DNA of 64,000 bases, taken from NCBI GenBank assembly GCA_021234155.1, contig JAJEKV010000035.1:4540224-4604223 (forward strand), written 5' to 3'. Source of the stretch: Isoetes taiwanensis (taxonomy: Eukaryota; Streptophyta; Lycopodiopsida; Isoetales; Isoetaceae). A program made the translations under genes and the position numbers. Shown here piece by piece: positions 6,846 to 64,000 of the stretch (the stretch's first letter is position 1; the number at the start of each line of letters is the position of its first letter). A model generated the notes under the pieces. That model had not been told where the DNA came from. It saw nothing but the letters and a program-made list of their open reading frames with translations, and made no database searches.

Positions 6846-7434
6846 TGTTAGTCCTGTGCCTCCTGGTACAGGACTATTCATGCATACGACGGACCAGGTC
6901 AAGAACAAGGACCCTGAGTGCACGTCGATCGTCAAAGGCCCAAAAAAGACCAAGCGGCGGACCAGCCCGGTCAAAGCCCTGGTCTCAAGTACCAAGAGGC
7001 CCGCCAGACAAGTGACGGCCACACCGCCTCGTCGGCGTCGGCGTGATTCCGGGCTTTTCAAGAGGCACCGCCAAAGATTCCTCAAAATCGGGCCTCCTTC
7101 CGTGAGTCGGCACCGAGATCGGTCGAGTGTCTATATTGGGCCAAAGGCCATTGTACTATATATATGAGTAGAGCTAGCACATGAGTTTTAGATGAGTTTT
7201 GAGTCTTGTCTCTTTTCGCCTCTTCTCTCGATTAAGTAGAGCTCATGTATGTTCATCATTGATATCAAGGAAGCTTATCATTTTCCCTCATTGTTCTCTT
7301 TATTCTCGCTTTCTTCTTCTTGTTCTCTTCTTGCAAATCCCGCGTGACATAGTCCCCGGATTCTCCCTGTTAGATCCATTGGTCCTCCGCAGAGGGTCAG
7401 TCTTCCAGAGTTCCCCGAACCCGGACCCCAAACA
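6846..7434 (+). repeat. 5' LTR of the Gag-protease element
   Basis: It begins TGTTAGTCCTGTGCC and ends CCGGACCCCAAACA. It contains a TATA-like TACTATATATATGAG near 7153-7167. Conserved blocks GACTATTCATGCATACGACG and GATATCAAGGAAGCTTATCA are shared with the 3' copy. Confidence 0.88.
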
Positions 7435-8961: not shown

Positions 8962-9345
8962 TCCTTCTAAAGCCCAAGTTATCACTTCATCCAAGAATGG
9001 GGTCATACCACCACCTGGCGTGTCCTCAACTTCCACAAGTTCAGGTGCAGCTTCCAGGCACCAATCAGACCACATCGGTCCGCCTCATGGCTTACCAACT
9101 CTGGATTGCTAATGGCAAACAAGGCCCGCGTCTTGTTCTTAAGAAGCCACCTCGCTACCAAAGAATCACGCGTTATCAACCAGCTCACGCCAATCAACCT
9201 CGGATGGATCAACAAGCACAGGGAAAAAATTTCCGTGCTCTTAATCCTCCATCCAAAATGCATCAAATTGGGTTGGTTTGGTTTCACGCCGCACCGTGGC
9301 ATCACGTCCCTTAACCATCATTCCTAATGGCACGCAACCCCGCCT

Positions 9346-10371
9346 TTGCGAAACGACACCATTCCTCATGACGAGGAAAAAAAGGTTCACTTTGCACCTG
9401 ACTTGGAGAAACTCATGCCGCATGTCATGCCTAAAGTTCGCCAAAGCATTTTGAACCTCATGCAAGCTGCTGAAGGCCGCACGTTGGCAAATGTTCATGC
9501 CATCACCAGAGCTGAACAAAGACAAGATACACCTTCCACATCTCAACCTCCACGCTCTCAGACATATCCCAATATTGCTGCAGAGGTTGACTTACTCAAA
9601 GAAGTTGCTGCTTCATTACCACGCACTCCAGCACCCGTGGAACCAGCAGATCCTTTTTCTCATGTGCCTTTGGAACTCCAAGAGGAGCTGGCAAAAATCA
9701 AAATCCCCTTAAGTTTGGCAACAATTTTGAAACTCTGTCCTGCTCTCAAGGACCAGTTACCACTCCCGACTGTTTTGGTTGGGGCTGTTGCTACCTCTAC
9801 CCCCACGGTCCATGCCACGGTGGGTAATCAGCAAGTCAACCATGTTCAAATAGACGGAGGTAGCGCAGTTAATCTCATCACGGATAAACTCCGCAAACAA
9901 ATGGACATCAAAGAACTTTATCGTGCCCCATATGACATCAAATTGGCTAATGGCCATATCACGAGACCTCAAGGCGTCACGCCTCTTCTTCACATCAACA
10001 TTGGTGACCTCCAATTCCCTTTGGAATTTGGAGTTTGGAAGGCTGGGGAAGATCCCGGTGATTATGAAATGTTGGTTGGCCGACCTTTTCTCCGCCAGGC
10101 CAAGAGTATCCATTACTGGGCCACGGATCAGTTAGTCATCACTGATGGACACCTCAATGCCACCATGGACTTGGAAACAGGCAAGATCATTTCTGTTGAA
10201 CATGCTGAACCCTCTCTCTCCGACACAGATTCTGAGGAAGCTCAGAATATCTATCAAGTTCAGGCTCTACCTGCGAGTCTGCCTCTGTCATCCTACCCCG
10301 AATATGCTGATCCTTGGGGTGAAATGACTCTTGATCAGGACCCACGCTCTTCATCAAGAGTACATGCCTGA
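9346..10371 (+). CDS. Retrotransposon aspartic protease polyprotein segment
   Basis: A 341-codon open frame; the annotated start need not be a real start, since the segment is part of a Gag-Pro polyprotein. Residues of about 145-280 form a retropepsin-like domain. NHVQIDGGSAVNLIT carries the catalytic Asp as D-G-G-S rather than the usual D-S/T-G. The downstream flap and second-half motif appears as DYEMLVGRPFLRQ, equivalent to the 'ILLGRPFL' block of plant Gypsy proteases. The N-terminal part is acidic linker. After about residue 320 the frame runs out without any RT sequence. The frame is intact, unlike the Gag part. Confidence 0.8.
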   Translation: MRNDTIPHDEEKKVHFAPDLEKLMPHVMPKVRQSILNLMQAAEGRTLANVHAITRAEQRQDTPSTSQPPRSQTYPNIAAEVDLLKEVAASLPRTPAPVEPADPFSHVPLELQEELAKIKIPLSLATILKLCPALKDQLPLPTVLVGAVATSTPTVHATVGNQQVNHVQIDGGSAVNLITDKLRKQMDIKELYRAPYDIKLANGHITRPQGVTPLLHINIGDLQFPLEFGVWKAGEDPGDYEMLVGRPFLRQAKSIHYWATDQLVITDGHLNATMDLETGKIISVEHAEPSLSDTDSEEAQNIYQVQALPASLPLSSYPEYADPWGEMTLDQDPRSSSRVHA

Positions 10372-10379
10372 GCTTGCAC

Positions 10380-11340
10380 ATCATTTACCTCTCTGGCAAG
10401 CGGAAGTGCTGCAACATATAAGGAAGTATCTGGGCCATCCTGAGGATCTTCCCTATGCACAAATTTATATGCAACACCTTGCCGGTTACAATCAATTACG
10501 TGCTCTTCTGGATAGCAAGACAGGTCCCCCACAGCCGATAGCCCTCCCCGTCAACTCTCAACTCTCTCGCCCTCGGGGGATCGTTGGTGTAACGCTCTTG
10601 ATCCGCCCCGGTCAAGAATTCGGGGCAAGCTCAAGAACCCACGCCCACGGGCATGGTTCCCTCTCCCTATGCCTCCCACGGGTGTTCCTCCACGCCCCGG
10701 GTTCCCCTCCTCGATTGGCGCCGCCTTTTTGGACCAAGGTCATGGATGGCCATCTTTGGATGGACTCCACCTCGGATCTCGACGGATCTCCTGGAATCCC
10801 CGTTTTGTTCGCCGCTCCAATTGGGAGGAGGGTGCCACTCTTGATAACACCATGAATTGGATCTATATTGCTAATGAGCGTGGTTGGCAACGCCCTGCTG
10901 ATGCGCTTCATGGTCTTGACACCTTCTTGCGAGAATCGCCACCTCACCGATCCTTGATCCATCTTCAAGCGGGTTTTGTGCTGCTCTCAAATGCATCTTG
11001 CTCAGCTCCTTAAATCGGCATCGTCCCATTTTTCACTGCAATCCGAATGCCAGTGTCAGTGCCTTCGGCCTCCAGACCTGCCTACTCATGGAATGTCAGT
11101 TCGTTTCTTCAGACGCCCATGCTGCCCTTGAAGACATGGTACGATCTCGTTTCCTCATTGATGCAGATCCTGCCCTTGGCCTCAACACTCCTCCTGCTCT
11201 ACAAACACGCTAGGATCTCATTGGCAAGTACCATAATGGTGCCCGTCCTCACTCCCGTGAGGATCACTTTCAGACAGATGGCTTCCCGCCCTCAGAAACA
11301 CTTCCTCCTTTTCTTCACTCTGAGTGTCGTTTGGTGGGGG
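10380..11340 (+). other. Internal region between protease and 3' LTR
   Basis: Several short overlapping frames exist, for example one at 10669-11013 rich in Pro, Gly and Trp. None carries RT, RNase H or integrase motifs. This is the non-coding or degenerated tail of the element. Confidence 0.6.
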
Positions 11341-11904
11341 TGTTAGTCCCACGTACACGGTGCAGGACTATTCATGCATACGACGGACCAGGTCAAGAAC
11401 AAGGACCCGGCAGCAAAAGACCAAGTAGCAGACCCAGCCGGTCAAAGCCCGGTCTACGCTACCAAGAGGCCCCTTCGAGACAAGTGGCGGCCCGCCACCG
11501 CAGCGTCGGCGTCGGTGTGATTCCGGCTTTTCAAGAGGCACCGCCAAAGATTCCTGCAAAATTAGGCCTCCTTCCGTGAGTCGCACCGAGATCGATCGAG
11601 TGTCTATATTGGGCCAAAGGCCATTGTACTATATATATGAGTAGAGCTAGCACATGAGTTTTTAGATGAGTTTTGAGTCTTGTCTCTTTTCAGTCTTCTC
11701 TCGATTGCGAGAGCTCATGTATGTTCATCATTGATATCAAGGAAGCTTATCATTTTTCCCTCATTGTTCTCTTTGTTCTGTTTTCTTCTTCTTGTTCTCT
11801 TCTTGCAAATCCCGCGTGACATAGTCCCCCGGATTCTCCTGTTAGATCCATTGGTCCTCACAGAGGGCTGTCTTCCAGGAGTTCCCGAACCCAGACCCCA
11901 AACA
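11341..11904 (+). repeat. 3' LTR of the Gag-protease element
   Basis: It begins TGTTAGTCCCACGTACACGG and ends CCAGACCCCAAACA. It aligns along its length with 6846-7434 but has several single-base and short deletions. The flanking ATCAA differs by one base from the 5' flank GTCAA. Confidence 0.88.
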
Positions 11905-11988
11905 ATCAACAAGAAATGGAAATTACATTGATAGTTGGAATAGAACAGAAACGTGGAAACGAGTCTAGAGGTTAAAGTCATGTATTTG

Positions 11989-15601: not shown

Positions 15602-16657
15602 TTATGGCCAATACTTCTTCAAGTGCAAGGAATTCTGGGGATTAGGTAACTCCACCATATCCATAGTTTGCAGCATATAAGAGTGCGTTCCAGCAATCCC
15701 TGTGATGATAAATGGGCCTTCCCATAGATTATCAAACTTGGCAACAACTTTCTCCTTCCTAGTGTTCCATTTTAAGACCAAGTCTCCAATCTTAAAGTTG
15801 CCTTGAAACCTTTGCTTCCTTGCTTGTGCTGCTATATTCTTAGCTTTTCTATGCCAATTTGCCTGTTCGGCCTGCTGCCTATCCTCTTCCAGTTTCAGCA
15901 ATTGGATTAGTCTTTCTTCAATGGCATCCTTATGTGGTACCTCAAGGCTGCATGCCACTTTAAGAGTAGGCACAATCATATCTATAGGTATTATAGCTTC
16001 TACTCCATATACCAATGCATATGGAGTGAATCCTGTGGCAGCTTTAACAGTAGTCCTATACGCCCAAAGTGCATTGGACAACATAAAATGCCAATTCCTC
16101 TTAGATGCAATGATCATTTTTTTAAGAATAGACTTAAGTACCTTATTGGTAGACTATGCCTGACCATTCCCCTGAGGATAATATGCACTACTCTTCACAT
16201 GCTTAACTTTTAACCGTGTTGTAAGCTCCTGAATAGTATCATTTATGAATGGAGATCCACGATCCGTGAGCAACTTCTTTGGTACACCAAACCTACAACA
16301 TATTTCAGAAAATATGAATTTGGCTGTTGTAACTGCATTGGCCTCTTTGAGAGGCATGGCTTCAGACCATTTAGTAAAGAGATCAGTAGCCACAATTATA
16401 TACTCATGTTGGTTACTTGAAGGTGGATTGACAGGCCCTATAAAATCTAATCCCCAAACTTCAAAAGGGGCTAGAGATAATATTGGAGTAAGAGGTGAAG
16501 CTAGCAACCTTTTCTTACCAAATATTTGACACTTGTGACACCTTTTGATATACTCGTGGCAATCACCAAACATAGAAGGCCAATAATATCCTGCCCGTAG
16601 TATTTTTTTTGCGGTGGTATCTGTGGCGAAATGCCCTCCACAAATGCCCCATGACAT
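15602..16657 (-). pseudogene. Gypsy integrase
   Basis: The zinc-binding part has RCHKCQIFGKK (the CC of HHCC). The core shows WGLDFIGP (first catalytic Asp), LLTDRGSPFIND (second Asp) and YYPQGNGQA. The next codon, where the catalytic Glu of the DD35E triad is expected, is TAG. The frame continues after it with STNKVLKSILKK, then WAYRTTVKAATGFTPYALVY and a C-terminal domain ending LKKYWP. So the copy is inactivated exactly at the third catalytic residue. Integrases insert the cDNA into host DNA. Confidence 0.88.
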
Positions 16658-18474
16658 TCACTGAGCACCTCAACTTGCTCTCCTTCATCAATACACCTCA
16701 ATAGGATGCCATCCCTATTAATCCTACAAAGGAATTCCCCTACCATTACAAAATTGAGGCAATCCAACTTGAACTTTCTTGCTGCTGCCCCAAACACTCC
16801 AGATGGGAGTTCTTGTGTAACAAGGTATTTAATGATAGGCGTCATCCAAGAAGTGTTTACAACAATAAACATTTGCTCAAGTTGCAATGGAACCTGCTGT
16901 TCCACCTTATTCTCGATCTGCTCATCTGGTTCCTCATGGTCAAAAAATGCATGGGGCACATAGGAGCTAGGATCCGTCACTCTAGTTATAGTCAGAACAT
17001 GCAAATCATATTCCTGCAACTTGACTGCCCATTTATGCCATTTAATTTTTTTCACATTTCTGCCATAGAGCAAAGGAAGTGGATTGTATTTCATATGAAC
17101 CTCTATTTTGTGACCTTGCAACATATATCCATGTTTATCAATCAAGCATACCAATGCAGAAGCATATCTCTCCAGCTTAGGGTATCTTTCTTCGATTTCT
17201 GACCACTGTTTACCTGCATAACCAATAACCTTCCTTTCTTGGGTGGTGGCAATTCCAGTGGCTTCTTTAGTTACTGTAACAAAAATTTCAAAGGGCACAC
17301 CTGACTTTGGACTCACTAGATTATGAGGCAGGCTTAAAATTCCAATCACATGTTCAAATGCTTCTTGGCATTGAGGAGTCCAGTTGATTGCTACCGTCTT
17401 GCTCACGCCTTTGGGTATGTTACCAATTCTCGTTAACTTGGCAATTGGGCTCATAACATGTGAAAAATTAGGCACATAAACTCTAAGGAAACTTACCATC
17501 CCTATCAACCTTTTTACCTCCTTAAGATTTCTTGGCCGTGGTAATTGCTTCAAAGCCAAAATCTTGTCCTCAGAAACTTCAATCCCTGCGCCAGAAATTG
17601 TGTGCCCCAATAACGTCCCTCTAGTGACCATAACGAGGCATTTCTTCGGATTCAAGCATATCCCTGATTGCTGGCACAATTTACATAGTTTGCCAATTAA
17701 TTCCAAGTGTTATTCTCGACTTGCTGCCAAACAAAAGTCATCAAGAAAAACTTTAAACAAATCTGATGGCATTGCCTTAAAGGCCACTGTCATGGCCCTT
17801 TGAAACGTGGAAGGGGCATTAGTAAGCCCAAAGGGCATCCATCTCATAGCGAAAGTACCCCAAGGAGTGATGAATGCAGTTTTATCTTGATCTTCCTCCC
17901 TAATGGCGACTTGATTGAACCCCGAGAAGCCATCCAAAAAGGAATAGAATTCTTTTCCAGCTACTGCATATAAAACATCCTGTATGAAGGGCAAAGGGAA
18001 GAAATCTCTTACAGTCGCTTTGTTCAATTCCTGATAATCCACACAAATGCTAAGAGAGCCATTTTTTTTTAGTACGAGTACTATGCATGAGACCCAAGAT
18101 GGATTTCTGCACTCAAAAATCAGATCAGCCCTTAACATTTTCTGCAATTCTTTCTCAATGAGTTCCATTAGGGCGTGGTTTATTCGCCTAAGCTTTTGAA
18201 TAACTGGCTTGGACCCTGATTTTAACTTAATTTCCAATTCACATACGTCTTTAGGTATGCCCTTCAATTCTCCATAGTCTCAAGCAAATATATCATTCGT
18301 CTCTTGAAATAAACCTTGCAAATACTTGAGCTCGCTTTCATTAAGCTGTATACCAACTGAAATTGTTCGTTTTTCTTCACCCTTAACAATAACGAGCTCT
18401 TGCACCTCTTTTTCTTGGGCTACATCAATGGTCAATATGGGATGCAATCCTTGCAACCATTTCTCATTAACTTC
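16501..18474 (-). pseudogene. Gypsy reverse transcriptase and RNase H
   Basis: Upstream linker and RT N-terminus read ELKGIPKDVCELEIKL with a stop where a Trp is usual (FA-stop-DYGELKG). RT motifs follow: LSICVDYQELNKATVRD, FLDGFSGFNQVAI, MPFGLTNAPSTFQRAM and VFLDDFCLA (the catalytic YxDD box as FLDD). After a stop the frame continues with GHTISGAGIEVSEDKI, FLRVYVPNFSHVMSPI and a Gypsy RNase H. In that RNase H the usual 'TDAS' catalytic block reads FVTVTKEATG, so its first catalytic Asp is missing. A second RNase H lies just upstream and could have replaced its function. Confidence 0.87.
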
Positions 18475-55370: not shown

Positions 55371-55554
55371 GTGAGTACTTATCACTGTTTTATTAGGATG
55401 CTTGTTTCCTGTTAGGCATGTTAGACTTGTTTAGAATGTTGAGCATATTTCAGCGTCGAGACACTCTCTGGGTTGAGAGATGTTGAGCAAGGGAGCAATC
55501 AATCAGGGTAACTCACGAACAGCTCCATGTTTTCGTAGTTTTGATTGGAATGAA

Positions 55555-56510
55555 TTCCCCTGTGATTAGTCGCAAAGGCCTCCACAGGGTCTGAGCCCCT
55601 CCCCTTTGCAATATTCGACGAAGATGGTTCGAAGGAGAGTGGCTCCGACTGGCTAGAGGCACCTGCGACTCGACACTGGAGAATGCACTAGAGCTTGGGC
55701 AGGTCAAGAGAGGATGTGAAATAAGCAGTATGCATTGTTGTGTGTAAGACTCGAGGGCCTTCTCGACTTACGAGTCGAGAAAGCCCCCCAGCCCTACTTA
55801 GAGATGGAGTTCAAATGAATTCCCGTGTGGTTAGTCGCAGAGGCCTCCACCTAGTTTGAGCCCTTACCCTTCGTAATATTCGAGGAAGATGGTTCGAAGG
55901 AGAGTGGCTCTGACTGAGTAGAGGCATCGGCGACTCGAATTGGAGAATGCACTAGAGCTTGGGCAGGACACGGGAGGATGTGAGATAAGCAGTCTGGATT
56001 GCTATGTGTAAGACTCGAGGGCCTTCTTGTCTCGCGAGTCGAGAAAGCCCCCAGCCCTCCTTAGAGATGGAGTTCAAATGCATTCCCCTGTGGTTAGTCG
56101 CAAAGGCCTCCACCCAGTCTGAGCCCCTCCCCTTTGCAATATTCGAGGAAGATGGTTCGAAGGAGAGTGGCTCTGATTAGGTAGAGGCACCGACGACTCG
56201 ACACTGGAGAATGCACTCAAGCTTGGGCAGGAGAAGGGAGGATGTGAGATAAGCAGTCTGCATTGCTGTGTGTAAGACTCGAGGGCCTTTTTGACTCGCG
56301 AGTCGAGAAAGCCCCCTAGCCCTCCTTAGAGATGGAGTTCAAATGCATTATTCTGTGGTTAGTCGCAGAGGCCTCCACCCAGTCTGAGCCCCTCCCCTTC
56401 GCAATATTCGAGGAAGATGGTTCACAAAAGACTGGCTCTGACTGGGTAGAGGCACCGATGATTCGACACTGGAGAATGCACTAGAGCTTGGGCAGGTCAA
56501 GGGAGGATGT
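55555..56510. repeat. 264-bp satellite, left part of the array
   Basis: Units starting near 55555, 55819, 56082 and 56350 (period 263-268 bp) share GGTTAGTCGCAGAGGCCTCC, GAAGATGGTTCGAAGGAGAG, GACTCGACACTGGAGAATGC, TAGAGCTTGGGCAGG and GTGTGTAAGACTCGAGGGCC, followed by the palindrome at about 55760, 56024 and 56288. The fourth unit is cut at 56510 by the LTR element and resumes at 63160. ORFs over the array are repeat artefacts. Confidence 0.9.
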
Positions 56511-58082
56511 TGTGACGTTCCAGCACAGTATACGGTCCCAGGACATATACTGTACTGCCTCGTCACGCGTATACGCCACTCCGACCGACGTGTACGCCGA
56601 CGGATAGCCAGGTAAGTAGCCCTAGGGGCAACTTGCTAGGTATATTCATATGTTATTAATGTGCACATGTGCACATTAATGTGGGCACACCTTTCCATGT
56701 AGACATATTTTGCCACCTAGCCATTAAAGGCAAGTGGGGCCTTTCCAATTATCCCACATGCTAAAATGGGTAATTGGAAACCCTAGCCCTAAACCCCATG
56801 TCTATTTAGGGTAGGAAAACCCTAACTTGTTAGTTTTCGTCCATAGGGTTTTAGAGCTCTGTTTTGGCTGCCCCAGGAGCCAAAACCGCCTCCCAGACGC
56901 TGCCCAAGCGAATTGCGCCATCAGTTTCCCTGAATTCGATCAGCTCAGCAGGATGGTTGAACTCAGGTCAGGAGGAGCCACTCAAGGATCAGGTATTTGG
57001 TCAATTTAATAGCTTAATCCGTCTTCTAGTCATAGAATCAGTAGGCTTAACCTATTAAATTGCCCATAACAGCTATCTAGATCTCTAGATCCCAGACACT
57101 AACTAAAGAACCTAACTCTATGATATAGATTAGATCTAGTTCTTTAGTTCTTCTATGATATATATGGATGATGTATCTCTGTGAACTCCTTGTATTGGGA
57201 AGGGGGGTAGAGGCCTAAGGCTTTGTAGTTGATGCTCCTAGAGTAGCCTCTCTAGCACACTGTAGATTCGGCCTGTGTACAAGAACCACACCTGGTTGTG
57301 GGTGAAGGGGCCAGACTGGCTAAGAAGGAGGTTCATGTCCTGACTCTTGAATGATCCCTCTGGTGTGTAAGGCCTACCAGGGATCATTGTGACTAGGCCT
57401 AATGGCTTACTACTGAGTGCGGGTAAGGCATGGGCTCGACACCCGTGAAGTGGTGTACACTTTCCAGTGGGTTCAGTCGAATACGGGCAGTGGCCCTCTA
57501 GTCACCTTGAGTCAGCATGTAGATCTTTGGAGGGAGTGATCCCTACCTGCCCCATCGGAACTGGGATGATGACCCCAGGAATAGCCCTTTTGGCTATGCA
57601 TCCGGCGGGCTACAGTCAGGTCCCGACACTTTTCAGCCTACTCTGCAAAGTGTGCACAGGAGGGGCGGATGGAGTGGACAACCCTATGCTATGTTCCTAT
57701 GCCAGCCAAATCCATTGCCATGAATTCTGTCTGCAATGAACTCTGGGGACCCAAGCCGTCAGTCATTCCCTTGAGTCTGAGCCTTGGGTAGGACTCCCTA
57801 TGTGATGTGCTGATCATTGTCTGTCTATGCAGATGTTGATGCACCACCCTTCTGGGTGGGAGGAGGATTATGTTGTATACTGACATGTATGTTTACGCTT
57901 CCGCAGCTAGGTAGGCCCTGAGGGAGACAGGGTAGAATGACACCTTCACTCTTCCCACTGGGACTCGTTACGGGTGCAGTGATGTGTGGAGGGCCCTGTA
58001 TCAGTGTGGAGCTGGTATGGGGGAAGAACTCCTGTTTGTATACGGCGAGGGCACCGTGTATCTCGCAGTAGGGGCGTCCACA
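56511..58082 (+). repeat. 5' LTR of the histone-carrying element
   Basis: It begins TGTGACGTTCCAGCACAGTA and ends GGGGCGTCCACA. It is 1572 bp long, and the start and end (TGTGACGT...ACGTCACA in the 3' copy) are short inverted repeats. The three ORFs visible here recur in the 3' LTR and are not genes. Confidence 0.95.
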
Positions 58083-58083
58083 G

Positions 58084-58095
58084 TGGTATCAGAGC
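58084..58095 (+). other. Primer-binding site
   Basis: TGGTATCAGAGC, one base after the 5' LTR, is the standard plant PBS complementary to the 3' end of initiator Met tRNA. It primes minus-strand cDNA synthesis. Confidence 0.93.
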
Positions 58096-58289
58096 AATGT
58101 TCTTGGAGACCAAGAGCAAAGCACTGGCCATGCTCCCAGTAGTACTAACTTGATAGGATCCTCAAGCCTCGAAAAGTGGGAAAATTTTTTTTTCTCATCT
58201 TTGTAGTTTATGCTAAGCTAGTAACAATTAAGTGAATTGGAACCTAATAAGATTAAAAATAATGAGCCAAAAATTTTCCAAGTGAGGTG

Positions 58290-58356
58290 GTCTCACAGCT
58301 CGCGCCTGGTCGAAGAACTAAAATTTAGTTTTGGAGCGAGGCGCAAGCTGTGAGAC
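58290..58356 (+). repeat. Hairpin copy 1
   Basis: GTCTCACAGCTCGCGCCTGG at the left pairs with AGGCGCAAGCTGTGAGAC at the right; the middle ACTAAAATTTAGTTTT continues the palindrome, so nearly all 67 bases can fold into one stem. Confidence 0.9.
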
Positions 58357-58479
58357 ATCGAGCCAGGATCACCAAAACATGATGAATTTGGGAAAAGTAA
58401 TGTGGTAAGGCTAGTTCTAAGGTAGGAATTAATTAGAATAGCATGTTTTAAGTACCTAAATAACCTAGAAATGTATGAG

Positions 58480-58546
58480 ATCTCACAGCTCGCGCCTGGT
58501 CTAAAAACTAAACATTAGTTTTTTAACGAGGCGCAAGCTGTGAGAC
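58480..58546 (+). repeat. Hairpin copy 2
   Basis: Same arms as copy 1, with TCTAAAAACTAA opposite TTAGTTTTTTAACGA in the middle. Compared with the other copies the inner stem shows paired changes (T-A where copy 3 has C-G) that keep pairing. Confidence 0.88.
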
Positions 58547-58648
58547 CAATAGGTAGAAAAAGTCTGAAATAAGTGTAAATTTTAACTAAATAGGTGCCTT
58601 AGCATGTTAAATAGAGCAACTTGAACTTTGACCTAAAATTTTCCAAGC

Positions 58649-58656
58649 TATAAATA
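58649..58656 (+). promoter_or_regulatory. TATA box of the histone-like gene
   Basis: TATAAATA in the context AAGCTATAAATAGATG lies about 102 bases upstream of the ATG at 58758. It is well inside the element, so the gene appears to have its own promoter apart from the LTR. A similar box follows the second hairpin pair at 60635. Confidence 0.7.
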
Positions 58657-58757
58657 GATGTAAACCCCCCTCATTTCCTCGTCCCAGCCCTAGAAATCCG
58701 CTCTCCCGCACTTAGGCGATCTTTGGGCGCTTTTATCCGATCGACGATCCGTAAAAC

Positions 58758-60032
58758 ATGGCCCGAACCAAACAGACCGCCAGGAAGCGTCGCCCAGGCG
58801 AAACCACCAGCGCCACTGATACTGACATCATTCGGCAGATGCTTCGCGAGAGGCTCGCGAGAGGGGGTCGTTCGCCTTCGGACGAGGAAGATATCTCAGA
58901 GGAGCAGGACACATCTGATCTGATTGATGTCTTCAATCAGCAGGCAGAGCAGGACGAGGCCACATCACCAACCTCCATGGACGAGGAGACAAGGGAGGTA
59001 TATGAAGATATAGAGCGAGAGATCCGGCAGCAGGAAAGAGCAGAAGACCATTCTGAAGCAGCCACGGAGATCCTCGAGCATGAAGAGCAGGCGACAGGTC
59101 TGGAGCCAGCGGAGGAAGCAGATCTCGCGAGGTTCATTAGGAAATATGAACGCCGGGAGAAGAGGAAGGAAGACAAAAAGAGGAAGAGGGAAGAGGAGGA
59201 ACATAAGGCGACATAAGAGAAAAAGAAGGCAAAGGGGATGTTTGTGGACGGCACAAGAAAGCTGAAGGACGTCCCGCCAAGGAAGAGGCCTAACCCCAAG
59301 ATCGTCATCAAGGAGCGACAAGCCGACGAACCTCCGAACCCCTCCGACAACTCTTCTGATGGGGACTTCAACCCTAATGCTGCAGGTGGAAGCTCTTCTA
59401 AACCCCCAGGCGACGAACAGGTAGTACCTGAGCAGCCCGGACCGAAAGCAACCCCAAAGAAGATCAAGTCACGTAAGCCCCCGAAAACCCGGCGTGGGAT
59501 AGGAAGAAGCAGCCACGACCTGCCCGGGAAGCCTACGTCACCGACAGGGTCAAGATATACGAGAGGAAGATGAGGGAGCACGAGGCGTATATGAAGAAAT
59601 GGGAGGCCTACAGCAAGTACTACGAAGAAAACAGGGTCCCATTTGTTGAAGGAGGACGGCCCACGAAGGAGCAGACCTTGAAGCCGCCACCACCAAAGCC
59701 CAAAGCTCCCAAAGCCACCACCCAAGAAGAAGAGGCTCGACAGGAAGGAGGTGGAGAGGAGAGCGCTAAGGGAGATTAGGCACTTCCAGCGCAGCTACGG
59801 ACTTCTAATCCCCCGTGCCCCCTTTGCTCGGTTGGTTCGAGAAGTGATGCAGGACTACAGGATGGACTTCAGGGTCACGGACGAGGCGCTGCTAGCAATG
59901 CAAGAAGCGGTTGAGGCAAAGATAGTGCAACATTTTGAAGATTCAACAGCTTGCACTGTTCACGCCAAGCGGGTGACCCTCATGCGACAAGACATGAGTC
60001 TTGCGAGCCGCATAAAGGGAGAACGCCCTTAG
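58758..60032 (+). pseudogene. Histone H3-derived protein with long charged linker
   Basis: The ATG (context AAAACATGG) opens MARTKQTARKRRPGE: residues 2-10 are exactly H3 residues 1-9, with Lys4 and Lys9 kept and Ser10 replaced by Arg. Residues of about 15-150 are acidic then Lys/Arg/Glu-rich and probably coiled coil. A TAA at 59214-59216 interrupts the frame, which continues to 59573 with Pro/Lys-rich sequence. A shift moves it to another frame near 59500 (KIYERKMREHEAYMKKWEAY) and a second shift returns it before about 59720. The end is an H3 fold: ALREIRHFQRSYGLLIPRAP, RLVREVMQDYRMDFRV, LLAMQEAVEAKIVQHFEDST and HAKRVTLMRQDMSLASRIKG, ending GERP. By hand about 49 of 89 residues match canonical plant H3 without any gap. 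EIRHFQ and LLIP recall CENH3, but the loop-1 length is that of H3. The total is about 424 codons against 135 in H3. Confidence 0.93.
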
Positions 60033-60178
60033 AACGTTTTTTGTAAATAATTAAAAATTTTGTAATATAGAGCAATTTTGTGTACTTTAATTGCATGAAC
60101 TTGATTAATTAGGACAAGTTAGCAGGTTTTAGTTTTTATTTCAGTAAAATAGGACATTTGCAGACCGAAAGACGTGAT

Positions 60179-60245
60179 GTCTCACAGCTCGCGCCTGGTC
60201 AAGAAACTAAACTTTAGTTTTTGAGCGAGGCGCAAGCTGTGAGAC
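60179..60245 (+). repeat. Hairpin copy 3
   Basis: GTCTCACAGCTCGCGCCTGG opposite AGGCGCAAGCTGTGAGAC, with AAACTAAACTTTAGTTTTT between. Same 67-base design as copies 1, 2 and 4. It lies about 150 bases after the histone stop codon. Confidence 0.92.
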
Positions 60246-60378
60246 CTTGCCTGAACTTGCCCAAAACAGCCCCAAATTGACCAAATAAGGGGTCAATTCT
60301 ACCTGATTTGATGAGCCCATCATCTTTACACCATTAGTTTACCCAAATTGGACACCTTTTGATCGAAATGAGACTGAT

Positions 60379-60445
60379 GTCTCACAGCTCGCGCGTGGTC
60401 GAAGAACTAAACTTTAGTTTTTGAGCAAGGCGCAAGCTGTGAGAC
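60379..60445 (+). repeat. Hairpin copy 4
   Basis: Same arms (GCGCG for GCGCC in the left arm) and the same middle as copy 3. Spacing from copy 3 is 200 bases, close to the 190 bases between copies 1 and 2. Confidence 0.92.
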
Positions 60446-60634
60446 CTCCTACCATTTCTTCACCAGAACTTGTCCAAATCATCTTCAACCTGTTGTATAG
60501 CATCTTTAGGTAATCCAGCCATGTTCAAACACTTGATCTAGTCTTCAAATTGCCATTTTGACCTTAGATAGACTAGAATTACCCAACCCCAGGAATTTTC
60601 CAAGTCACCCAAAAATTAGGGTTTCCCCCTTTTC

Positions 60635-60642
60635 TATAAATA
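60635..60642 (+). promoter_or_regulatory. Second TATA-like box
   Basis: TATAAATA in CTATAAATAGACCCCTCATTCCTC. The context is similar to 58649 (CTATAAATAGATGTAAACCCCCCTCATTTCCTC), and both follow a hairpin pair and a TTTTCCAAG block. This suggests that the promoter module was duplicated. Confidence 0.6.
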
Positions 60643-60659
60643 GACCCCTCATTCCTCAA

Positions 60660-61575
60660 ATAGCACCCTACAAATCTGCTCCTGTCCGAAGAAATCGGCT
60701 CAGGCATGTCGATTTGTGTAGGTTAATTCTTGTATAGTTAGGATTAATCTACGCATGCAACCTATGCTTGGTATGGGTCGCATGCGTTGTACCGATGATG
60801 AGACCACTACGGTGATCTCTAGGGCGTGGTGTAATGTCAATGTAGGCATGACCGCGTTTCCGCTTGGATGAGTGGAAGGTAGATTAGAAAGTCTACTTCT
60901 GTCCCACGGAAGTAGACGACCTCGAGAGAAAGGAGGTCATTAAGGAATGCATTGATAGGAAAGGCACCTTTAGCCCCATATATGCTTTGATAGGAGGAAT
61001 CTATCCTTCACGCCCCCCACGCAAGAAGGATATCCTCCACGCTGGGCAACTAGAGGTGTAGGCATGAGCGGCATATAGGCATATAGGCGCTGTCTCCACG
61101 GCCATTATGGAAGATTCATCCTCTTCCTACGCCGGGAGATTAGCCATGCATTCATGTAGATAGGTGGGGTGGTCACCATATAACCAAAATTTATTAAATA
61201 ATTAAAATGGTACTAACGTAGTGTCGACCTGCAGGCCAATAGAGCACTCCGGAGGGCAAGGAGGTCGAGCTACGAAGACTTGCAACACAAAATTTTGTTG
61301 GAATGTGTTGCAAGGAACGAAGAGTACCTCGAACAATAATTATAGATATGAAATGTTGAAATTTTGTCTAACTTAATGTCGTATTAACTAAACTAGGAAT
61401 AACTTGTTTAATGAAGTTATGAATGGATAAGTATTCCATAGTATAATGACATAATAATGTGGTAATCTTGGTAAATGTATAAATATTATATTGTATGCAT
61501 CACGTTGATTGCAGATTGCAGATTAGGAAGATCCCAAGGTGGGGAGACCCACGATGCTGCGGACAACATCATTTC
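60660..61575 (+). other. Internal 3' region of the element, no frame
   Basis: Downstream of the second TATA-like box there is no long open frame. The sequence has short inverted and direct repeats (AGAAAGTCTACTTCTG...CGGAAGTAGAC; GCATATAGGCATATAGGC). It may be a non-coding transcript or a decayed second gene. Confidence 0.5.
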
Positions 61576-61588
61576 AAGGTGGGGAGAA
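61576..61588 (+). other. Polypurine tract
   Basis: AAGGTGGGGAGAA directly precedes the 3' LTR. It is the expected primer for plus-strand cDNA synthesis. A near copy, AAGGTGGGGAGA, lies about 38 bases upstream at 61537. Confidence 0.9.
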
Positions 61589-63159
61589 TGTGACGTTCCA
61601 GCACAGTATACGGTCCCAGGATGTATACTGTACTGCCTCGTCACGAGTATACGCCATTCCGACCGACGTGTACGCCGACGGATAGCCAGGTAAGTAGCCC
61701 TAGGGGCAACTTGCTAGGTATATTCATATGTTATTAATGTGCACATGTGCACATTAATGTGGGCACACCTTTCCATGTAGACATATTTTGCCACCTAGCC
61801 ATTAAAGGCAAGTGGGGCCTTTCCAATTATCCCACATGCTAAAATGGGTAATTGGAAACCCTAGCCCTAAACCCCATGTCTATTTAGCGTAGGAAAGCCC
61901 TAACTTGTTAGTTTTCGTCCATAGGGTTTTAGAGCTCTGTTTTGGCTGCCCCAGGAGCCAAAACCGCCTCCCAGACGCTGCCCAAGCGAATTGCGCCATC
62001 AGTTTTCCTGAATTCGATCAGCTCAGCAGGATGGTTGAACTCAGGTCAGGAGGAGCCACTCAAGGATCAGGTATTTGGTCAATTTAATAGCTTAATCCGT
62101 CTTCTAGTCATAGAATCAGTAGGCTTAACCTATTAAATTGCCCATAGCAGCTATCTAGATCTCTAGATCCCAGACACTAACTAAACAACCTAACTCTATG
62201 ATATAGATTAGATCTAGTTCTTTAGTTCTTCTGTGATATATATGGATGATGTATCTCTGTGAACTCCTTGTATTGGGAAGGGGGGTAGAGGCCCTAAGGC
62301 TTTGTAGTTGATGCTCCTAGAGTAGCCTCTCTAGCACACTGTAGATTCGACCTGTGTACAAGAACCACACCTGGTTGTGGGTGAAGAGGGGCCAGACTGG
62401 CTAAGAAGGAGGTTCATGTCCTGACTCTTGAACGATCCCTCTGGTGTGTAAGGCCTACCAGGGATCATTGTGACTAGGCCTAATGGCTTACCACTGAGTG
62501 CGGGTAAGGCATGGGCTCGACACCCGTGAAGTGGTGTACACTTTCCAGTGGGTTCAGTCGAATACGGGCAGTGGCCCTCTAGTCACCTTGAGTCAGCATG
62601 TAGATCTCTGGAGGGAGTGATCCCTACCTGCCCCATCGGAACTGGGATGATGACCCCAGGAATAGCCCTTTTGGCTATGCATCTGGCGGGCTACAGTCAG
62701 GTCCCGACACTCTTCAGCCTACTCTGCAAAGTGTGCACAGGAGGGGCGGATGGAGTGGACAACCCTATGCCATGTTCCTATGCCAGCCAAATCCATTGCC
62801 ATGAATTCTGTCTGCAATGAACTCTGGGGACCCAAGCCGTCAGTCATTCCCTTGAGTCTGAGCCTTGGGTAGGACTCCCTATGTGATGTGCCGATCATTG
62901 TCTGTCTATGCAGATGTTGATGCACCACCCTTCTGGGTGGGAGGAGGATTATGTTGTATACTGACATGTATGTTTACGCTTCCGCAGCTAGGTAGGCCCT
63001 GAGGGAGACAGGGTAGAATGACACCTTCACTCTTCCCACTGGGACTCGTTACGGGTGCAGTGATGTGTGGAGGGCCCTGTATCAGTGTGGAGCTGGTATG
63101 GGGGAAGAACTCCTGTTTGTATACGGCGAGGGCACCGTATGCGAGTAGGGGACGTCACA
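61589..63159 (+). repeat. 3' LTR of the histone-carrying element
   Basis: It begins TGTGACGTTCCAGCACAGTA and ends AGGGGACGTCACA, 1571 bp. It is nearly identical to 56511-58082. It keeps the intact ACGTCACA end that is altered in the 5' copy. Confidence 0.95.
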
Positions 63160-63480
63160 GATGTGAGATAAGTAGTTTGCATTGCTGTGTGTAAGACTCG
63201 AGGGCCTTCTTGACTCGCGAGTCGAGAAAGCCCCGCATCCCTCCTTAGGGATGTAGTTCAAATGCATTCCCCTGTGGTTAGATGCAGAGGCCTCCACCCA
63301 GTCTGAGCCCCTCCCCTTTGTAATATCAGATGAAGACGGTTCGAAGGAGAGTGGTTCTGACTGGGTAAAGGCACCTGTGACTCGACACTGGAGAATGCAC
63401 TAGAGCTTGGGCAGGTATAGGGGAATGTGGGATACGTAGTCTGCATTGCTATACGTTGGACTAAAGGACTTCTCAACTCG
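63160..63480. repeat. 264-bp satellite, right part of the array
   Basis: The unit cut at 56510 resumes with GATGTGAGATAAGTAGT, then the palindrome at about 63208, and a further unit begins near 63266. The last unit diverges after about 63430. Confidence 0.88.
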
Positions 63481-63890
63481 CGAGTCAAGAAAGCTCCTCT
63501 CGACTCGCCTATCTAGTATGCGACCACCAAGATTGAGTCCCTATCCTCAAAAGTGTTGGAGTAGAGGGATCCGGTCTGGATGGCCGCATTCTCGACTCAC
63601 GTTTCGAGAATAGGGGGAGTAGACTAGTGTTGGCTGGCTGAGGCATTCTCGACTCGCGAGTCGAGAATAGGGAGTATAATAGCAACTTGTTGGATGAGAA
63701 ATTCTCGACTCGCGAGGCGAGTATAAGGGGAGTAGATCCTGGAGTCTTGGGTGGGAGATGCATTCTCAACTCGCGAGTCGAGAATAGAAGTGTCGGCTAT
63801 GTAAGGCATTCTTGACTCCCGAGTCGAGAATTCAGAGTAAGAGCCGGTGCTTGCTGAGTGAGAAATTCTTGACTCGCGAGGCGAGATTGC
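63470..63890. repeat. Short-period palindrome array
   Basis: Palindrome copies or variants at about 63472, 63592, 63648, 63702, 63763, 63808 and 63866, spaced roughly 45-120 bp apart. Most are followed by a variable spacer that starts ATAGGGGGAGTAGA or similar. Several are exact (TCTCGACTCGCGAGTCGAGA at 63648); others keep one arm intact. The ORFs here are repeat artefacts. Confidence 0.85.
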
Positions 63891-64000
63891 AGGGTGTAGA
63901 CTGCACCTTTCCTGCAAGGGAGAATGTATTATGTGTTAGAAAGGTATGTGCAATGCTCTAAACTACCTAACATCTTCACAATTCAACTGAATGAAACATT

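Follow-up and report, generated by a model that had tools for sequence, protein, structure and literature searches.

A Ty3/gypsy retrotransposon family of Isoetes taiwanensis with a conserved, remodelled histone H3 as its first gene

Results

An H3-like gene inside an LTR element

The window analysed here (the whole 64,000-nucleotide stretch, positions 4,540,224 to 4,604,223 of the forward strand of Isoetes taiwanensis contig JAJEKV010000035.1) contains an LTR element at window positions 56511–63159 that is marked by two LTRs, a pair of target site duplications, a primer binding site (PBS) and a polypurine tract (PPT). The 5'-LTR (56511–58082, 1572 bp) and the 3'-LTR (61589–63159, 1571 bp) are both on the + strand, as are all internal features described below, and they are flanked by the duplication GATGT at 56506–56510 and 63160–63164. 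The PBS TGGTATCAGAGC (58084–58095), which we take to be of the initiator-tRNA-Met (iMet) type, begins one base past the end of the 5'-LTR, and the PPT AAGGTGGGGAGAA (61576–61588) lies directly 5' of the 3'-LTR. The original prediction, made from the letters of the window, had recognized the element with its PBS, PPT and target site duplication, as we do, and had called the LTRs exact; they are in fact near-identical and differ at 26 of 1568 aligned positions (K2P distance 0.0168). The element is inserted at the margin of a tandem array of 265-bp units (55549–56510), and a further copy of the array unit is present behind it at 63160–63422.

The interior of the element contains an H3-like gene, ORF1 (58758–60032), which is disrupted in this copy. 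Its frame starts with the histone H3 tail MARTKQTARK (58758–58787), as had been predicted, and ends with an H3 histone fold (59763–60029) that is identified by Pfam, solved chains and alignment and has no gaps relative to canonical H3: the piece from 59685 to 60029 matches the Pfam Histone family PF00125 with an E value of 5e-28 and solved H3 chains, without gaps, with an E value of 5.5e-27, and the αN, α1, α2 and α3 helices are all present. The fold is 55% identical to plant H3.1 (a reference sequence entered by hand), in line with the earlier hand count of about 49 identities in 89 ungapped residues. The tail tip and the fold are thus both kept, with roughly 320 residues between them, and the view of this gene as a captured and remodelled H3 is upheld. 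The predicted one stop and two frameshifts are also present, the former a TAA codon at 59214–59216 and the latter at about 59490–59510 and about 59700–59780, where the second shift restores the first frame. AlphaFold models the window fold with four helices, at modest quality (pLDDT 67.9). In a Foldseek search with this model nucleosome H3 chains rank first (TM ~0.46) and nearly all of the best 50 rows are nucleosome entries, which adds little to what the sequence shows.

ORF1 is bracketed by four near-perfect hairpins of about 70 nt each with calculated energies of -38 to -44 kcal/mol. One pair is in the leader 5' of ORF1 (at about 58288–58358 and 58478–58547) and a second pair is 3' of it (at about 60177–60246 and 60377–60446). 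All four are present in 13 of the 20 homologous loci that were fetched (below), one to three in 3 and none in 4 (L046–L049). An Rfam scan of 58080–61590 gave no match, and the idea that the hairpins are specially conserved was rejected, as they are barely above their flanks (means of 92 versus 90% and 90 versus 87% in 11 loci). Roles in packaging, dimerisation or expression of a downstream ORF are guesses. At window 63573–63900 a palindromic motif centred on CTCGACTCGCGAGTCGAG occurs five times at intervals; it resembles the element hairpins in style and differs from them in sequence.

The H3-like gene is present in many copies

The genome assembly of 1,658,258,908 bases in 1110 contigs was searched for copies with the 86-residue fold of the window as the query, and the best 150 of 8756 candidates were scored. 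We call window-like H3s type A. There are at least 150 type-A fold places (the window's own included); each place listed is at least 84% identical to the window fold, and a stop lies inside the fold in only 4 of the 150. We fetched 43 distinct type-A copies other than that of the window, and 20 loci of 9.9 kb each. An open full-length H3 frame, defined as one that begins at an ARTKQ-type start and runs unbroken to its stop codon, is present in 14 of the 43 copies (13 of the 14 with an ATG); the remaining 29 fail this test, which undercounts open genes because L038 and L046 are open and have an altered tail. In an alignment of the 14 open copies the fold hardly varies, and insertions and deletions are frequent in the connection between tail and fold.

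LTR sequence homologous to that of the window lies 5' of the H3 frame in 19 of the 20 fetched loci; L040 is the one locus in which no window-like LTR was found upstream of this frame. Copy L034 is a mosaic relative to the window, with 79% identity in the LTR, 93% in the leader, 69% in the ORF1 linker, 91% in the fold and 92% beyond ORF1, as if elements swap segments through recombination.

The full element carries ORF2 and gag-pol

Homology to the window ends at window position 60671–60687 in 18 of the 20 loci (earlier in L046 and L050), and beyond this breakpoint the relatives continue with a second gene, ORF2, and then with gag-pol. The remaining interior of the window element (60688–61588) has no match to ORF2 and no long frame. 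The gene order in the relatives is 5'-LTR, leader, ORF1 (H3, ~420 aa), ORF2 (~515 aa) and gag-protease-RT-(RNaseH)-integrase. The homology ends where the relatives carry ORF2 and the Ty3/gypsy gag-pol genes, and the claim that H3 is the only gene of the element does not survive this finding. We infer that the copy in the window arose by deletion and is a broken member, lacking part of its interior, of an autonomous-looking Ty3/gypsy family in which H3 is the first gene.

Gag, with a Ty3-type capsid, aspartic protease and RT follow one another in this order in L041 (7617–9899) and in the L033 frames, where RT is cut short by the end of the fetched sequence. The L041 gag matches the Pfam families Retrotrans_gag (3e-17) and Ty3_capsid (2e-14), and its CCHC knuckle is clear by eye with a Pfam E value of 0.03, which does not pass the cut-off. 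A gag segment was usable in 12 of the 20 loci and a protease segment in 10; the window element has neither. In L048, a locus with an internal deletion, RNaseH-like sequence is followed by integrase sequence, both assigned by their motifs. An integrase query found at least 150 places in the genome, and when the best 150 of each list are compared, 21 of the 150 H3 places are followed on the same strand, at no more than 15 kb, by an integrase, which lies 5734–5869 bp away in 16 of the 21. Among these listed places none has an integrase downstream on the opposite strand, and one has an integrase upstream.

ORF2 is 515 aa long in L033, where it starts with MATSDFRRWYSASAHAAEAD, and it matches no Pfam family. 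In a search of 5.8 billion proteins, of which the best 8000 candidates were scored, the one relative at an E value of 0.001 or better was P0121 (48% over 99%, source lgn). The AlphaFold model of P0121 alone has a pLDDT of 31.6 and is unusable.

The H3 tail tip and fold are under purifying selection

Nei-Gojobori dN/dS values pooled over the 91 pairs of the 14 open copies are 0.070 for the tail (codons 1–14), 0.267 for the linker (codons 15–237), 0.111 for the middle segment, 0.063 for the fold and 0.189 for ORF1 as a whole. The tail value was recomputed without the motif because the 14 copies were chosen by that tail motif, which biases the tail. All but one (L046) of the 43 copies can be aligned across the tail; 12 of these 42 have an indel in tail codons 1–10, and the 30 indel-free copies have a dN/dS of 0.012 in these codons (pS 0.47), with all ten tail residues retained in 27 of them. 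The H3 tail, where it is unbroken, is the most constrained part of the protein and is outside the stretch by which the copies were chosen. The copies with tail indels are L003, L010, L017–L019, L021, L022, L024, L028–L030 and L040, and several of these indels are at much the same place, which would fit either decay common to one subfamily or a genuine variant.

The fold, in copies open or not, has a dN/dS of 0.065 over all 20 loci and of 0.071 over all 43 copies, none of which has a stop in it. The corresponding values for other genes are 0.173 for gag (12 usable loci, 6 with a stop), 0.141 for protease (10 usable loci, 2 with a stop), 0.160 for the start of ORF2 (14 of 20 loci, 1 with a stop) and 0.276 for its end (15 of 20 loci, 3 with a stop); these segments come from differing subsets of copies, synonymous divergence between copy groups is near saturation, and the choice of copies by fold similarity biases the fold dN and stop counts downward relative to gag-pol. 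The above values (fold 0.06–0.07, tail 0.01–0.07) show that purifying selection has maintained the H3 tail tip and fold in many copies. Since other copies, open frames and purifying selection are all present, the claim of an H3 capture is left standing.

These values also bear on the idea that the gene is a passenger, that is, a one-off capture of a non-functional H3 that hitchhikes and decays. The window copy and many others are indeed broken, and the H3 genes captured by hAT elements in the fungus Pseudocercospora fijiensis are all inactivated according to the available part of the report (PMC6710886). A fold dN/dS of 0.06–0.07 at near-saturated synonymous divergence, 14 open genes among 43 fetched copies, and an H3-ORF2 order that is found again in a second family (below) argue against it and make it very improbable. 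The number of copies, their open frames and the dN/dS values all contradict a one-off pseudogene capture.

Residues kept and changed in the type-A H3

Of the 88 fold positions, 42 have the canonical H3 residue in every one of the 14 open copies. They include D106, C110, H113, D123, L126, A127 and I130, which together with R116 (kept in 13 of 14) we take to form the H3-H3' four-helix interface, and R52, R69, R72, R83, K115 and T118, presumably DNA-facing residues, all kept in 14 of 14. Fixed changes in the 14 copies include K56R, R63P, L65A, P121R, K122Q and R131K, and K64 is replaced in every copy (by R in 13 and H in 1). In positions 87–90, which we assume to be the chaperone-recognition patch, S87E, V89L and A90L are fixed and position 88 is M in 8 copies and A in 6. 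Tail residues 1–10 with K4 and K9 are retained, and the region of K14, K27 and K36 is replaced by the linker. Judged from the residues, this is the pattern expected of a functional H3 variant in which modification and chaperone sites have changed, and not of decay. The retained residues are compatible with entry into nucleosomes with H4; host chaperones may not handle the type-A H3, because the 87–90 patch and R63 are changed.

A second H3 family has the same H3-ORF2 order

With canonical H3 as the query at least 150 places were found, and those listed comprise 15 host-like H3 genes (96–98% identity) and 135 others (71–86% identity). We call these 135 listed places, which were grouped by similarity and not checked singly, type B. 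Their open frames reach 567 aa. Proteins of the same type are found among the public 'ena' matches, where they are mostly 360–440 aa long and have, between MARTKQTARK and the fold, a long linker of another kind; some places in this genome match the 'ena' linker too. In a decayed type-B locus, L060, a frame 210 bp past H3 can be aligned to the type-A ORF2 (hhalign probability 89, E value 2.2e-6, 20% identity over 122 columns). When this ORF2-like frame was used as a query (best 150 of 151 matches scored), a match was present on the same strand 179–264 bp (~208 bp) downstream of 32 of the 135 type-B places listed, and no listed place had one downstream on the opposite strand. The two families thus have the H3-ORF2 order in common, where type B is known from its H3-ORF2 pair. 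Two stretches of the window (6846–7434 and 11229–11905) contain, in opposite orientation, a repeat with about 82% similarity to the 3' portion of L060.

Kinship between the linkers of type A and of nine long-H3 database proteins was rejected, as the fold alone matched the window. A pattern search for type-B context in contigs of viruses and prokaryotes gave 47 matches, of which none was confirmed in viral contigs, and at 9 loci in genome contigs the fold was the best-matching segment. Five proteins from other sources (P0002, P0003, P0085, P0104 and P0115) are H3s of 272–596 aa that have MARTKQTARK and other inserts or extensions, and they may represent further element-encoded H3 lineages. The 'ena' long-H3 proteins and P0121 suggest that relatives of the H3-ORF2 module may occur elsewhere.

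Origin of the type-A fold

Could the type-A H3 derive from the centromeric variant CENH3 and act like it, so that the element targets or rides on centromeric chromatin? The type-A fold has motifs in common with plant CENH3 (LLIP.APF.R.VRE, T.EALLALQEAAE and VTLMR.D), and a FastTree tree of folds groups type A with three angiosperm CENH3s at 0.90 support, two of the three CENH3 sequences in these comparisons having been entered by hand. Loop 1 of the type-A fold, however, has the canonical length without a CENH3-type insertion, and the tail MARTKQTARK is canonical. In IQ-TREE under the LG+C20 model type A is a clade (100/100) outside CENH3, where a union of the two is unrejected (AU p 0.42). 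No protein named CENH3 is present among the best 120 of 7306 proteins matched by a type-A fold profile (42–61% identity), most of whose rows are nameless. Taken together, these observations make a CENH3 origin and role improbable. The seed-plant setting of the original prediction is probably wrong, as Isoetes taiwanensis is a lycophyte.

Discussion

What might an element-encoded H3 do?

The conservation of its H3 suggests that the element uses it to deal with host chromatin. The reading that we favour, at a probability of roughly 0.55, is that ORF1 encodes a functional H3 variant that is paired with host H4 and serves the element's own chromatin. Such a variant would borrow the host's H3-H4 handling and would be deposited on the element's own DNA, either nuclear cDNA or new insertions. 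The resulting nucleosomes would retain the K4/K9 tail tip without the K27/K36 region and with K56, K64 and K122 replaced, and we propose that chromatin altered in this way, in the tail and at these three positions, might resist silencing or be flagged for machinery that the element itself encodes. By way of its charged linker the protein could tether another element protein, perhaps the product of the adjoining ORF2.

The extreme constraint on residues 1–10 with K4 and K9 (0.012 in the 30 indel-free copies versus 0.27 in the adjoining linker) and the replacement of the canonical 87–90 patch in 14 of 14 open copies would also fit a tail mimic or targeting adaptor, a protein that binds readers, chaperones or the element's own integrase without building nucleosomes. 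Its purpose might be to guide the pre-integration complex towards particular chromatin, or to sequester silencing factors. We consider such an adaptor, and with it these purposes, unlikely, as the fold too is under strong selection and the retained H3-H3' interface and DNA-facing arginines would be needless for a bare tail mimic. The position of ORF1 as the first gene past the 5'-LTR and its retained basic DNA-facing residues bring to mind a packaging protein that condenses nucleic acid in the particle beside gag, alone or as an H3-type dimer. The element has a gag of its own, however, with a Ty3-type capsid and a CCHC knuckle that is seen by eye and does not pass the Pfam cut-off, and packaging leaves the conservation of the K4/K9 tail unexplained, so we would be surprised if this were the function.

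If the preferred reading of ORF1 as a variant that enters nucleosomes is correct, it may extend beyond type A. We tentatively suggest, at odds short of even, a class of self-chromatinising retrotransposons: two long-diverged families in one lycophyte share an H3-ORF2 module, and variant nucleosomes on their cDNA or insertions could escape or redirect silencing.

Relation to known systems

We found no retrotransposon with a histone gene among the titles and abstract openings listed by searches of 5.39 million open-access papers, and the word 'histone' is absent from the Isoetes sinensis genome paper (PMC10541799). The nearest parallel, and the one instance of H3 capture by a transposon that these searches brought up, is in fungi: hAT DNA transposons of Pyrenophora tritici-repentis, Pseudocercospora fijiensis and relatives captured a host H3 coding sequence, according to the available part of that report, and amplified it to tens or hundreds of copies, much as here (PMC6710886). 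The carrier there is a DNA transposon and no long linker is described in that part, whereas here it is a Ty3/gypsy element with a linker of ~320 residues; RIP has inactivated every copy in P. fijiensis, and most of them are truncated (PMC6710886). Unlike the fungal hAT elements, the element here shows long-term purifying selection on H3 and a fixed order with ORF2 and gag-pol. A plant Ty3/gypsy lineage that retains a captured host gene as an extra ORF has been described, in the portion of the source available, in Phalaenopsis orchids, whose elements carry an ORF for an AlkB m6A RNA demethylase (PMC9289625); that enzyme acts on RNA, and the protein here is a structural chromatin protein whose gene comes first, ahead of ORF2 and gag. 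Histones are also encoded by viruses, such as bracovirus H4 and the single viral H3s of DNA viruses (PMC9145170, PMC5423620, both in their available parts). These are again parasitic elements with a histone, the carriers there being DNA viruses, and words in retrotranspos- or retrovir- are absent from the available text of the review of viral histones (PMC9145170). Additional ORFs of plant LTR elements are, as far as the available text of their review goes, most frequent between pol and the 3'-LTR; ORF1 here is in sense and upstream, a position that the review mentions, and the word 'histone' is absent from that text (PMC7264820). Already known, then, are the capture of H3 by transposons and LTR elements with extra ORFs; what is new is a Ty3/gypsy element that has a conserved, remodelled H3 as its first gene.

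Hosts normally use histones to silence transposons, and an LTR retrotransposon that conserves its own H3 reverses this usual relation. The type-A H3 is a natural variant with altered mark sites, and as such could serve to test which H3 lysines silencing requires. H3 genes borne by elements are also a possible route to new histone variants. With well over 100 H3 places listed for each of the two families, the question is within reach of experiment.

Possible parts of other retroelements are present elsewhere in the window. A long frame at 9328–10371 (+ strand) resembles, by eye, a retropepsin region, and another at 16501–17709 (- strand) resembles, again by eye, an RT/RNaseH region.
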